NCBI GenBank assembly: GCA_016861105.1
Contig: BOKS01000002.1
Coordinates: forward strand, 1 to 64,000
Direction: 5' to 3'
From: Betaproteobacteria bacterium
GTDB taxonomy: Bacteria; Pseudomonadota; Gammaproteobacteria; Burkholderiales; Casimicrobiaceae
Length of the DNA stretch: 64,000 bases
Shown one piece after another: positions 30,981-64,000 of the stretch. Within the stretch, counting starts at the first letter, position 1; each line of letters starts with the position of its first letter. The position numbers and the translations under genes are program-made. Under the pieces are notes generated by a model. The model was not told the origin of the DNA. It ran no database searches and was given only the letters and a program-made list of their open reading frames with translations.

Positions 30981-31888
30981 CGACCGCAGCGCCCGTGGCG
31001 AGCGTGATCGTGGCGCTCAACCCCCACGACAACGACCTGCGCCGCATCTTCGCCGCGTGCGACGCGCAGCAGGGCATCGCCGCGCCCTACGAGGTGCTGG
31101 TGATCGACAACGGTGCGCGCGCCGGCGTGGCGGCGGCGTGCCGCGAGCACGCGGCCGCGCATCCGGGCACGGCGGTGGTCCACGTCGCGTGCGACCGCCG
31201 CGGACGGGCTGCCGCCAACAACGCGGGCATCCGCCGCGCCCGCGCCGGGCACTTGGTGTTCGTCGCCGACGATTTCATCCCGGCGCCGACGCTGCTGCGC
31301 GCGCACCTCGACTTCCAGCAGCAACTCGCGGCACCGGCTGCGGGCATCGGCCCCGCGTACTTCACGCCGGCGTGCGCCCGTGATCCCTTCCGCCGCTGGC
31401 TCGAGGACAGCGGACGGCTGTTCGGCGTGCCGTTCCGCACGGCGTCCGTCCAGTGGCCGGGCCAGTTCTTCTACGTGGGAAACGTCTCGCTGCCGCGAAG
31501 CGCGTTCGACCGCGTCGGCGGGTTCGACGAGCGCTTCGAGGACGACCTGCAGGACGACCTCGAGTTCGGCCTGCGCCTCGCCGCCGCGGGGATCCGCACG
31601 CACCTGCTGCCGGCGGCGGTCGCCTGGCACGACCACGACCTCACGCTCGACGAGCGGCTCGAGGCGATGCGGCGCGCGGGGCGCGCGGCGCGGCGGATGG
31701 AGGCGCGCGCAGCGGGCGCCAGGCCGTGGGCGCCGATCGTCGACCAGCCGGTCGCGCCGCTCGCTGCGCTGGCGGCGGTCGACCGCGCGACCGATCCCTC
31801 GGCGCAGGCCCGTGCCGAGTACTTCCGCGCGCGGGTCGACCTCGCGTTCATCGAGGGGTATCGCGCCGGGGACCCGGCCCCCCCTTGA
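30977..31888 (+). CDS. Family 2 glycosyltransferase
   Basis: A 303-residue GT-A enzyme: VASVIVALNPHDNDLRRIFA, YEVLVIDNGARAG, GRAAANNAGIRRARAGHLVFVADDF (DD motif), and DRVGGFDERFEDDLQDDLEFGLRL, which carries the usual ED base region. It likely acts with the previous gene, whose stop it overlaps (GTGA at 30977-30980). Its own stop, TGA 31886-31888, is the first three bases of a palindromic repeat, and the last residues GDPAPP may be altered by that insertion. Confidence 0.86.
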   Translation: MTTAAPVASVIVALNPHDNDLRRIFAACDAQQGIAAPYEVLVIDNGARAGVAAACREHAAAHPGTAVVHVACDRRGRAAANNAGIRRARAGHLVFVADDFIPAPTLLRAHLDFQQQLAAPAAGIGPAYFTPACARDPFRRWLEDSGRLFGVPFRTASVQWPGQFFYVGNVSLPRSAFDRVGGFDERFEDDLQDDLEFGLRLAAAGIRTHLLPAAVAWHDHDLTLDERLEAMRRAGRAARRMEARAAGARPWAPIVDQPVAPLAALAAVDRATDPSAQARAEYFRARVDLAFIEGYRAGDPAPP

Positions 31889-31979
31889 CCCCAAAACGAG
31901 GGTCAGAGTCGCATTTCCACGGCCAGCATCCAAGACGCACGGAAATGGAAATGCGAGTCTGACCCTCGATTTGGGGTCA
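31886..31979. repeat. REP-like palindrome A (GGGTCAGAG family)
   Basis: Arms 31886-31919 and 31946-31979, 34 bases each with 32 complementary, and a 26-base loop. Each arm begins TGACCCC and contains GAGGGTCAGA. The left TGA is the stop of the glycosyltransferase gene and the right TGA (minus strand) the stop of the DUF2970 gene, so the element sits flush between converging genes. Two other members are at 42.5 and 62.9 kb. Confidence 0.92.
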
Positions 31980-41802: not shown

Positions 41803-42528
41803 ATGGAGAAGCGCCAGGAGCTGTACAAGGGCAAGGCGAAGACGGTCTACGCGACGGACGACCCGCGCTACCTCGTCATGCACTATCGCGACGACGTCTC
41901 CGCGTTCGACGGTGCGAAGCTCGCCAGCCTCGAGCGCAAGGGCGAGACCAACAACCTGTTCAACGCCCACGTGATGCAGCGGCTCGCCCAGGCGGGCGTC
42001 GCCTCGCACTTCGTGCGCGTGCTGGGCGAGCGCGAGTCGCTGGTCAGGGCGATGAAGATGCTGCCGGTCGAGTGCGTGGTGCGCAACGTGGTCGCGGGGT
42101 CGATGGCCAAGCGCTACGGCATCGCCGAGGGCACGCGGCTCCCCGAGCCGATCTTCGAGTTCTTCCTCAAGAGCGACGCGCTCCACGATCCGCTGGTGAA
42201 CGACGACCACATCCGCGTGCTGGGCTGGGCGAGCGCCGACGAGATCGCGCAGATGAAGGCGATGACGCACCGGGTCAACGGCGTGCTGCGGCCGCTGTTC
42301 GCCGCGGCCGGGATCGACCTCGTCGACTACAAGCTCGAGTTCGGCCACCCGGTCGACGACCCCGGCGGGCCCCTCGTGCTGGGCGACGAGTTCACGCCGG
42401 ACGGCTGCCGCCTGTGGGACGCGACGACCGGCGAGAAGATGGACAAGGACCGCTTCCGGCGCGACCTCGGAAGCGTCATCGAGCACTACCGCGAAGTCGG
42501 CCGGCGCATCGGCGTGCCGGGCATGTAG
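41803..42528 (+). CDS. purC: Phosphoribosylaminoimidazole-succinocarboxamide synthase
   Basis: PurC (SAICAR synthetase) joins CAIR and aspartate using ATP in purine synthesis. The 241-residue protein starts EKRQELYKGKAKTVYATDDP (ATP-binding beta-hairpin), then SAFDGAKLASLERKG, VECVVRNVVAGSMAKRYG, and the substrate motif KLEFGHPVDD and GDEFTPDGCRLWD. ATG 41803 follows GGAG at 41792-41795 and matches the family start; GTG 41776 would add nine residues. Palindrome B begins nine bases after its stop. Confidence 0.96.
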   Translation: MEKRQELYKGKAKTVYATDDPRYLVMHYRDDVSAFDGAKLASLERKGETNNLFNAHVMQRLAQAGVASHFVRVLGERESLVRAMKMLPVECVVRNVVAGSMAKRYGIAEGTRLPEPIFEFFLKSDALHDPLVNDDHIRVLGWASADEIAQMKAMTHRVNGVLRPLFAAAGIDLVDYKLEFGHPVDDPGGPLVLGDEFTPDGCRLWDATTGEKMDKDRFRRDLGSVIEHYREVGRRIGVPGM

Positions 42529-42530
42529 TT

Positions 42531-42652
42531 CGCGTCGATCGGGGTCAGAGCCGATCGGGGTCAGAGCCGCAACGCAGGCGCGGATTCGCCCCGCCTGCGT
42601 TGCGGCTCTGACCCCGATCGACGCGCTCCGCCTGCGTTACGGCTCTGACCCC
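42531..42652. repeat. REP-like palindrome B, compound
   Basis: The core is a perfect 29-base inverted repeat, 42552-42580 and 42592-42620, with an 11-base loop. Each arm starts CGATCGGGGTCAGAGCCG. Around it, GATCGGGGTCAGAGCC is repeated directly at 42537-42552 and 42553-42568, a further inverted copy (GCGTTACGGCTCTGACCCC) ends at 42652, and CGCGTCGATCGGGG pairs 42531-42544 with 42612-42625. This is a nested, multi-copy element between converging purC and the DUF7931-like gene, whose TAG abuts the last GGGGTCA. Confidence 0.93.
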
Positions 42653-60973: not shown

Positions 60974-62902
60974 ATGTGCGGGATCGCCGGCCTCTTCGAC
61001 ACGCGCGCGCGGCGCGACGTCGACCGCGCGCTCCTCGACCGCATGAACGAATCGCAGCGCCACCGCGGGCCGGACGGCGGCGGCCTTCACGTCGAGCCCG
61101 GCGTCGGGCTCGGGCACCGGCGCCTCGCCATCATCGACGTCGCCACCGGCCAGCAGCCGCTGTTCAACGAGGACGGCAGCGTGGCGATCGTCTTCAACGG
61201 CGAGATCTACAACTACCGCGAGCTCATCCCGGAGCTCGCCGCGCTCGGGCACGCGTTCGCCACCAAGAGCGACACCGAGGTCATCGTCCACGCGTGGGAG
61301 GCGTGGGGCGAGGCGTGCGTCCAGCGCCTGCGCGGGATGTTCGCCTTCGCGCTGTGGGACCGCAACCGCGAGACGCTGTTCCTGGCGCGCGACCGCCTCG
61401 GCGTCAAGCCGCTGCACTACGCGCTGCTCGACGACGGCACATTGCTGTTCGGCTCGGAGATGAAGGCGCTGCTGGCGCACCCGGCCCTGTCCCGCACGAT
61501 CGACCCGTGCGCGATCGAGGAGTACTTCGCGCTCGGCTACGTGGCCGAGCCGCGCACCGTCTTTTCGGGCGCGCGCAAGCTTCCGCCGGCGCACACGCTG
61601 GCCGTGCGCCGTGGCGAGCGGCTGCCCGAGCCGCGCCGCTATTGGGATCCGCGCTTCACGCTCGACCGCGCGCTCGATCCGCGGGAGGCGTGCGACGAGC
61701 TGACCGCGCGGCTCGACGAGTCCGTGCGGCTGCGCCTGATCTCGGAGGTCCCGCTCGGCGCGTTCCTCTCCGGCGGCGTGGATTCGAGCGCGGTGGTCGC
61801 GTCGATGGCGCGCGTGTCCGCCGACCCGGTCAATACCTGCGCGATCGCCTTCGCCGATCCGGCGTTCGACGAGTCCCGCTACGCGCAGATGGTCGCGTCG
61901 CGCTACGGCACCCGGCACTTCGTCGACCGCGTCGAGAGCGACGACTTCGACCTGATCGACGAGCTGGCCCGCGTCTACGACGAGCCCTACGCCGACAGCT
62001 CGGCCATCCCGACCTACCGCGTCTGCCAGCTCGCGCGCCGGCACGTCACCGTCGCGCTGTCGGGCGACGGCGGCGACGAGAACTTCGCGGGCTATCGCCG
62101 CTACCGGCTGCACCTCGGCGAGGAGCGGCTGCGCCGGGCGCTGCCGCAGTCGGTGCGCGGCGCGTTGTTCGGCGCGCTGGGCCGCGCCTACCCGAAGGCC
62201 GACTGGGCGCCGCGCTTCCTGCGCGCGAAGTCCACGTTCGAGGCGCTGGGCCGCGATTCCGTGGCGGCGTACTTCCACGGCGTGTCGATCCTGCGCGACG
62301 ACATGCGGCGGCGTCTCTTCACGCCCGCGTTCCGCCGCGAGCTGGGCGGCTACGGCGCGGTCGAGGTGTTCCGCCGCCACGCCGCGGACGCCGGCACCGC
62401 GGATCCGCTGGCGCTGGTGCAGTACCTCGACCTCAAGACCTACCTCGTCGGCGACATCAACACCAAGGTCGACCGCGCCAGCATGGCGCACTCGCTCGAA
62501 GTCCGCGAGCCGCTGATGGATCATCCGCTGGTCGAGTGGCTCGCGAGCCTGCCGTCGTCGCTCAAGGTCCGCGACGGCGAGGGGAAGTGGCTGCTCAAGA
62601 AGGCCATGGAGCCGCGGCTGCCCGACGAGGTGCTCTACCGGCCGAAGATGGGCTTCGCCGTGCCGCTCGCCCGCTGGTTCCGCGGTCCGCTGCGCGAGCG
62701 CGTGCGCGACGCGCTGCTCGGCGAGCGGCTGGCCGACACCGGCATGTTCGAGCGCGTCTGCCTGCGGCGCCTCATCGACGATCACCAGTCGGGCCTGCGC
62801 GACCACAGCGCGCCGCTGTGGACGCTGCTCATGTTCGACGCCTTCCTGCGCAACACGGTCGACGCGGGCGGCCGCGCGGCGGCGCTGGAGCGGGCGGCAT
62901 GA
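60974..62902 (+). CDS. XrtA/PEP-CTERM-system amidotransferase (asparagine-synthase-like)
   Basis: A 642-residue protein of the AsnB fold. Class-II glutaminase domain with nucleophile Cys2 (MCGIAGLF) and NESQRHRGPDG, then the synthetase domain with the PP-loop LSGGVDSSAVVA and ALSGDGGDENFAGYRRY. Such enzymes in polysaccharide loci amidate uronic acids or similar carboxylates rather than aspartate. The ATG follows the glycosyltransferase stop by 16 bases. Palindrome C starts ten bases after its own stop. Confidence 0.94.
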   Translation: MCGIAGLFDTRARRDVDRALLDRMNESQRHRGPDGGGLHVEPGVGLGHRRLAIIDVATGQQPLFNEDGSVAIVFNGEIYNYRELIPELAALGHAFATKSDTEVIVHAWEAWGEACVQRLRGMFAFALWDRNRETLFLARDRLGVKPLHYALLDDGTLLFGSEMKALLAHPALSRTIDPCAIEEYFALGYVAEPRTVFSGARKLPPAHTLAVRRGERLPEPRRYWDPRFTLDRALDPREACDELTARLDESVRLRLISEVPLGAFLSGGVDSSAVVASMARVSADPVNTCAIAFADPAFDESRYAQMVASRYGTRHFVDRVESDDFDLIDELARVYDEPYADSSAIPTYRVCQLARRHVTVALSGDGGDENFAGYRRYRLHLGEERLRRALPQSVRGALFGALGRAYPKADWAPRFLRAKSTFEALGRDSVAAYFHGVSILRDDMRRRLFTPAFRRELGGYGAVEVFRRHAADAGTADPLALVQYLDLKTYLVGDINTKVDRASMAHSLEVREPLMDHPLVEWLASLPSSLKVRDGEGKWLLKKAMEPRLPDEVLYRPKMGFAVPLARWFRGPLRERVRDALLGERLADTGMFERVCLRRLIDDHQSGLRDHSAPLWTLLMFDAFLRNTVDAGGRAAALERAA

Positions 62903-62912
62903 AGCGCTTCGC

Positions 62913-63012
62913 GGCAACGGGGTCAGAGCCGTTCTTCGCCGGTGCAGCCGTGGCTTCGTACGGCGACCGTTCGGCGAAGAACGTCTCTGACCCCGTTGCC
63001 GTCGCTGACCCC
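62913..63012. repeat. REP-like palindrome C
   Basis: Arms 62913-62941 and 62972-63000, 29 bases with 28 complementary and a 30-base loop; arms begin GGCAACGGGGTCAGAG. A further GCTGACCCC follows at 63004-63012. It lies inside the XrtA operon, in the only gap over 100 bases between the amidotransferase and next glycosyltransferase genes. Confidence 0.93.
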
Positions 63013-63026
63013 TTTCGGTGACGGCG

Positions 63027-64000
63027 ATGCGCATCCTGCACGTCCTCGACCACTCGCTGCCGCTGCACAGCGGCTACGCGTTCCGCACCGCGGCGATCCT
63101 GCGCGAGCAGCACGCGCTCGGCTGGGAGACGCTGCAGCTGACCACGCCGCGACAGCAGGCCGGCGACGACGTCGAGCGGGCCGGCGGGCTCGTCTTCCAC
63201 CGCACGCCGCTGCCCGGGTCCGCGCTCGCCCGCGTGCCGCTGGCTGGCTACGCGCGGGAGATGGCCGCCACCGCGGCGCGCATCGGTGCGCTGGCGGCAT
63301 CGTTCCGGCCCGACGTGCTCCACGCGCACTCGCCGGTGCTCGACGTGCTGCCCGCGCTGCGCGTGGGGCGCCGGCTCGGGCTGCCGGTCGTCTACGAGCT
63401 GCGTGCGCTGTGGGAGGACGCCGCCGTCGACCACGGCACGACCACCGAGGGAAGCGCGCGCTACCGCGCGTCGCGCGGCGTCGAGACGTGGGCGCTGCGC
63501 CGCGTCGACCACGTGACGACGATCTGCGAGGGCCTGCGCGCGGAGATCGTCGCGCGCGGCATCGCGCCCGAGCGCGTGACCGTGGTGCCCAACGCGGTGG
63601 ACGTCGCCGCGTTCCGTTTCGCGCAGCCGGCCGACGACGCGCTGCGCGCCCGGCTGGGCTTCGCCGGCTGCACGGTCGTCGGCTTCGCCGGCTCGTTCTA
63701 CGCCTACGAGGGAATCGACCTGCTGATCGACGCCGTGGCGCGCCTCGCCCCCGCCCACCGGCGCCTGCGCGTGCTGCTGGTCGGCGGCGGCCCGCAGGAG
63801 CGGGCGCTGCGCGCGCAGGCGATCGAGCAGGGACTGGGCGACCGCGTCGTCTTCAGCGGCCGCGTGCCGCACGACGAGGTGCAGCGCTACTACGGGCTCA
63901 TCGACGTGCTCGCGTATCCCCGCCACCGGATGCGCCTCACGGAGCTCGTCACCCCGCTCAAGCCGCTGGAGGCGATGGCGCAGGGCCGCATGCTCGTCGC
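63027..64000 (+). CDS. Exosortase A system glycosyltransferase (TIGR04063 type), truncated by window edge
   Basis: The first 324 residues of a GT-B family 4 enzyme; the end lies beyond the window. RILHVLDHSLPLHSGYAFRT is the characteristic start of the exosortase-A group. LHAHSPVLDVLPALRVGRR, ELRALWEDAAVDHGTT, VVPNAVDVAAF, VLLVGGGPQERALRAQA and LTPLKPLEAMAQGR-type TELVTPLKPLEAMA follow. ATG 63027 is preferred; GTG 63018 in frame is an alternative. Palindrome C lies just upstream, so its message carries the repeat in its leader. Confidence 0.92.
   Translation, partial: MRILHVLDHSLPLHSGYAFRTAAILREQHALGWETLQLTTPRQQAGDDVERAGGLVFHRTPLPGSALARVPLAGYAREMAATAARIGALAASFRPDVLHAHSPVLDVLPALRVGRRLGLPVVYELRALWEDAAVDHGTTTEGSARYRASRGVETWALRRVDHVTTICEGLRAEIVARGIAPERVTVVPNAVDVAAFRFAQPADDALRARLGFAGCTVVGFAGSFYAYEGIDLLIDAVARLAPAHRRLRVLLVGGGPQERALRAQAIEQGLGDRVVFSGRVPHDEVQRYYGLIDVLAYPRHRMRLTELVTPLKPLEAMAQGRMLV

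Follow-up and report, generated by a model that had tools for sequence, protein, structure and literature searches.

Inverted pairs of ends in three intergenic gaps

The window, that is the whole stretch of 64,000 nucleotides analysed here, belongs to a genome that is 85% complete and contains palindromic elements at about 31.9, 42.5 and 62.9 kb. All three lie between ORFs, just after genes, and each is an inverted pair (doublet) of GGGTCAG-cored ends. Two of the gaps separate convergent ORFs: one, between a + strand ORF that ends at 31888 and a - strand ORF that ends at 31977, is filled by the 31.9 kb doublet, and the other, between ORFs whose ends are at 42528 (+) and 42652 (-), contains the 42.5 kb doublet, which has extra tandem ends on both sides. 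The third is located between an ORF ending at 62902, which we take to be asparagine-synthetase-like, and one starting near 63018, presumably glycosyltransferase-like, both names being recognised from the sequence. The parts of the elements are as follows.

31890..31919, + strand: left arm at 31.9 kb, with stem CGCATTTC of family A
31946..31975, - strand: right arm of the 31.9 kb doublet
42542..42553, + strand: additional left-end motif in tandem, GGGTCAGAGCCG (42.5 kb)
42552..42579, + strand: left arm at 42.5 kb, whose stem CAACGCAGGCG is private
42593..42620, - strand: right arm of the 42.5 kb doublet
42640..42651, - strand: additional right-end motif (42.5 kb), which follows a near-copy (GCCTGCGTTA) of the right stem
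62912..62941, + strand: left arm at 62.9 kb, whose stem TTCTTCGCCG is private
62972..63001, - strand: right arm of the 62.9 kb doublet
63000..63011, - strand: third end motif at 62.9 kb, imperfect (GGGTCAGCGACG)

The nearly complementary arms reported by the first-pass annotation are real: around GGGTCAGAG, they measure 30, 28 and 30 bp at 31.9, 42.5 and 62.9 kb, with 2, 0 and 1 mismatches between arms, respectively. The end motif that it assigned to all three needs a correction at 31.9 kb, where one arm reads GGGTCAGAG and the other GGGTCAGAC. Folded as DNA, the three elements gave z-scores of -9.0 to -11.4, far better than shuffles, and in a control only 2-4 of 3000 random window stretches scored as high, which is about the number expected from overlap with the elements themselves. 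Beyond the motif, complementarity extends to the outer arms over about 8 bases, after which pairing drops towards background. Folding energies of single-end hairpins were weak and not clearly above shuffles, and the claim of pairing within one end is therefore based on covariation across copies. No Rfam family matched over positions 62800-63150, and the 62.9 kb doublet was absent from the orthologous place in the genomes G004, G018 and G014.

Stem families and their transposases

The 31.9 kb stem (family A) is the commonest repeat of the genome, GGGTCAGASTCGCATTTC being matched with at most one mismatch at 113 sites, versus none for its reversed control in the same genome. The 42.5 and 62.9 kb elements share the core of a second family (B), and their stems (GAGCCGCAACGCAGG and GAGCCGTTCTTCGCC) occur at no locus but their own among the GGGTCAGAGCCG matches in this genome. 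The 31.9 kb stem is thus not private, and the other two remain so. The ordinary alternative named at the time, spread of a few fixed stem families, applies to the 31.9 kb copy and to most family B copies, leaving out the 42.5 and 62.9 kb elements. Stems are thus mostly fixed families, and the finding made in the window is mostly ordinary repeat spread with one unexplained twist. Further unusual family B stems, CCGTAACATCG and CCGTGACAATCG, resemble the ends of a transposase of genome G020 (CCGTAACAATC). Near-identical doublets were also seen 1.2-1.4 kb apart on one contig (L138 at 32, 1191 and 2621; L105 at 3834 and 5217), possibly as part of a tandem array.

The window's genome has two PF01797 (Y1_Tnp) genes. 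One is open, encodes 231 amino acids (G000:C4:176521-177213) and carries family A ends on its flanks; the other (L067/L325, G000:C7:107217-107699) is flanked by family B ends and broken by one TGA and one TAG in the matched stretch. Inverted TIRs of the same family as the dispersed repeats thus flank a transposase gene, and an HUH transposase is indicated by the Y1_Tnp match together with a TNHVH motif. Among the TIR-flanked transposases of the window's genus, every one has a stem variant of its own. In the genus of G076, TIR-flanked genes carry one type each (GCCC, CTCC, CCCC or GCAC), alike on both sides where both were found; the GCAC, GCCC and CTCC/CCCC variants fall in different parts of the protein tree, and three genomes (G373, G374, G338) each contain two transposases with two different variants. 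Stem type tracks transposase lineage, and the idea that each copy must have had its stem freshly created gives way to stems being families of transposase lineages.

This association has exceptions. No TIRs were found near three transposases of the window's genus (L317, L318, L321), and no GGGTCAGA ends within 400 bases of six others from several species of the G076 genus (L405, L410, L411, L412, L414, L415). These six form a clade of close Y1 transposases of 232-233 amino acids with RGNDNQ near the N-terminus, possibly a domesticated gene. Doublets and transposase also overlap imperfectly in the window's genus, G015, G018 and G021 having doublets without a protein match and G003 the reverse. 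Numerous Proteobacteria have doublets with the GGGGTCAGAG core, as do contigs classified under certain other phyla. Their distribution is patchy, with 8 of 300 genomes of the order versus 13 of 22 of the genus, the latter count using a slightly looser pattern. A literature search with the core sequence returned chance matches only.

Y1/HUH transposases of the TIRYT/RAYT kind with TIR doublets were described in 2013 (Di Nocera et al. 2013, PMC3733652). In TIRtrons, as here, inverted TIRs with the motif GGGGWSAS flank a Y1 transposase gene, repeats are single, dimeric or grouped with double palindromic TIRs, and one genome may hold several TIR families and transposases (PMC3733652). Family B GGGGTCAG fits the motif and family A AGGGTCAG is one base off. 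Neither arm-by-arm covariation nor a match between stem type and transposase tree is reported in the parts of that account drawn on here. REPINs (Bertels and Rainey 2011, PMC3116915) share with the present elements the inverted doublet folding into a long hairpin, the link to a transposase and compensatory arm changes; unlike them, the window's ends, read directly, have GGGTCAG as core and no GTAG/GTGG tetranucleotide beside the stem. Most TIRYTs that have the consensus GGGG[AT][CG]A[CG] belong to TnpAREP subclass 2.1 (PMC6006769). A Pfam scan of the intact proteins did not reveal the C-terminal helix-turn-helix of this subclass, Y1_Tnp being the sole relevant match at E up to 1, although a diverged domain could escape. 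The transposase scored 70 bits with the NCBIfam REP_Tyr_transpos model, below the cut-off of 80. The IS200/IS605 family has a Y1/HUH transposase and hairpin ends as well, but the score with the NCBIfam IS200 model NF033573 was only 13.7 bits for a cut-off of 55. A PDB sequence search returned only TnpArep 4ER8 (E = 0.19).

Matched arms within copies and one-sided changes at orthologous sites

Among 98 deduplicated copies from many taxa, inner arms matched at 0.82, versus 0.38 when arms were re-dealt between copies; the values were 0.57 versus 0.32 for outer arms, and 0.49 versus 0.35, at an offset of 3, for the outer against the inner arm of one end. Because each genome has its own families, a comparison within one genome and one subfamily is stronger. 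In subfamily C of G014, within-copy agreement at positions 2, 3, 4, 9 and 10 was 0.95, 0.95, 0.86, 0.81 and 0.76, versus 0.38, 0.61, 0.38, 0.39 and 0.35 after re-dealing. Positions 2-4 were identical in both arms of 17 of the 21 copies (about 2.4 expected), with 8 different matched triplet types, and none of 10,000 re-deals reached this, even with copies collapsed to distinct types; the 4 other copies were unmatched. The first-pass annotation had proposed a test for coevolution of the arms inside a copy combined with differences from copy to copy, and this is what is observed even inside a single genome and subfamily. The picture was less clear in other families: in G006, G013 and the ATG family of G014, one-sided changes were commoner than paired ones.

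The history of individual copies was read at two elements of G076, in a genus other than the window's, by comparing the same intergenic place in related species at about 76-87% identity. Depending on the species, the place holds a homologous doublet, another TIR family, a single arm, an unrelated palindrome or nothing. Within the first 12 stem positions, homologous doublets showed 26 departures, all of them one-sided and leaving a mispair, and no paired two-arm change, a left-arm indel in three second-site copies inflating their mispair count. Homology of the copies is inferred from position and family, and one family may also have reinserted where it had been before. Arm identity within copies (0.82 and 0.78) was not above that between copies (0.86 and 0.82), and indel asymmetry was retained in L362, L367 and L368. 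Copies caught with one arm only, which the first-pass annotation had suggested looking for, are L360 and L371; L364 differs from L360 by an inserted doublet, an insertion polymorphism, and nested insertions were found. Doublets thus insert as units, as the proposal that the hairpin is created or corrected as a unit would have it, but ongoing correction in place is contradicted by the orthologous copies. The data also fit a restoration of symmetry during mobilisation, the only form in which the proposal survives. Taken together, these comparisons suggest that arms match while families are mobile and would decay independently afterwards.

Origin of the paired stems

The window hairpins are likely to be non-autonomous doublets of the ends of a TIRYT/RAYT-type Y1 (HUH) transposase, with stems kept paired by enzyme selection. 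Each end comprises the constant core GGGTCAG, a few adjoining lineage-dependent bases and short flanking arms, which join those of the partner in one long hairpin and can also pair inside a single end. The substrate of the transposase is probably single-stranded DNA in folded form, in which the core would be read and the stem would have to be paired without having a fixed sequence. Such pairing-dependent, sequence-tolerant recognition would let stems drift between transposase lineages and subfamilies, whereas copies still mobilised would keep both arms matched; in copies no longer moving, the arms would degenerate one at a time or be deleted. In agreement with this, TnpAREP tolerated an exchanged upper stem in the E. 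coli REP, and in two REP systems of group 3 its cleavage was severely lowered or almost lost when the stem carried mismatches (PMC8266576). An enzyme for which the stem must be paired but may vary in sequence would account for matched arms in families of many subtypes as well as for the one-sided decay of resident copies. Counted against this reading are the 42.5 and 62.9 kb stems, which have no family in this genome and were traced to no transposase, the REP_Tyr_transpos score, the transposases devoid of TIRs and the one-sided changes in G006, G013 and the G014 ATG family.

Selection by the transposase is favoured over symmetry made on mobilisation, which we regard as unlikely. There, a single-stranded intermediate would fold back and, before inserting or while doing so, have one arm made to match the other by copying or repair, so that with each move a new stem could become fixed in the two arms simultaneously. 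The match of arms in families of several subtypes, and not in resident orthologous copies, is what such copying predicts, and selection for pairing yields the same pattern. One variant is also present at both distant ends of a transposase unit; these ends are about 1 kb apart, however, a distance over which a short hairpin would not readily allow one end to be copied from the other. The unmatched copies of subfamily C speak against it as well.

Continual correction of resident hairpins by replication template switching (quasipalindrome correction), a known bacterial process, would account for matched arms but is very improbable in view of the exclusively one-sided departures, the arm identities and the retained indels described above for the two orthologous sites. 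Equally improbable is the insertion of elements into the tip of pre-existing terminator stems forming the outer arms: a few copies have outer palindromes of at least 14 bases and the window elements follow genes, but several of the longest such palindromes are among tandem repeats, and we rejected it as a general case on the outer pairing, which stops at about 8 bases in most copies, and on the orthologous empty sites, where no such stem was seen by eye.

With many transposase-stem pairs in related species and with orthologous filled and empty sites, these elements offer a clean comparative system, which bears on how hairpin-recognising transposases change their target stem and on whether arms are matched by selection or by copying during mobilisation. 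Some individual sites have features of their own. In L336, L339 and L341, unrelated palindromic repeats stand at the intergenic position where sister species carry TIR doublets, which suggests an insertion hotspot. L347 contains ACACCGGGGTCAGAAGTCG, which reads as a deletion of an L338-like allele between short GTCAGA repeats and is likely to be the scar of a lost doublet. Finally, the doublet of L361 is a hybrid: the outer flank is AAACC at one end and GAATT-family sequence at the other, a pattern that would arise if, at the shared core, one family had recombined with an older end or inserted there.
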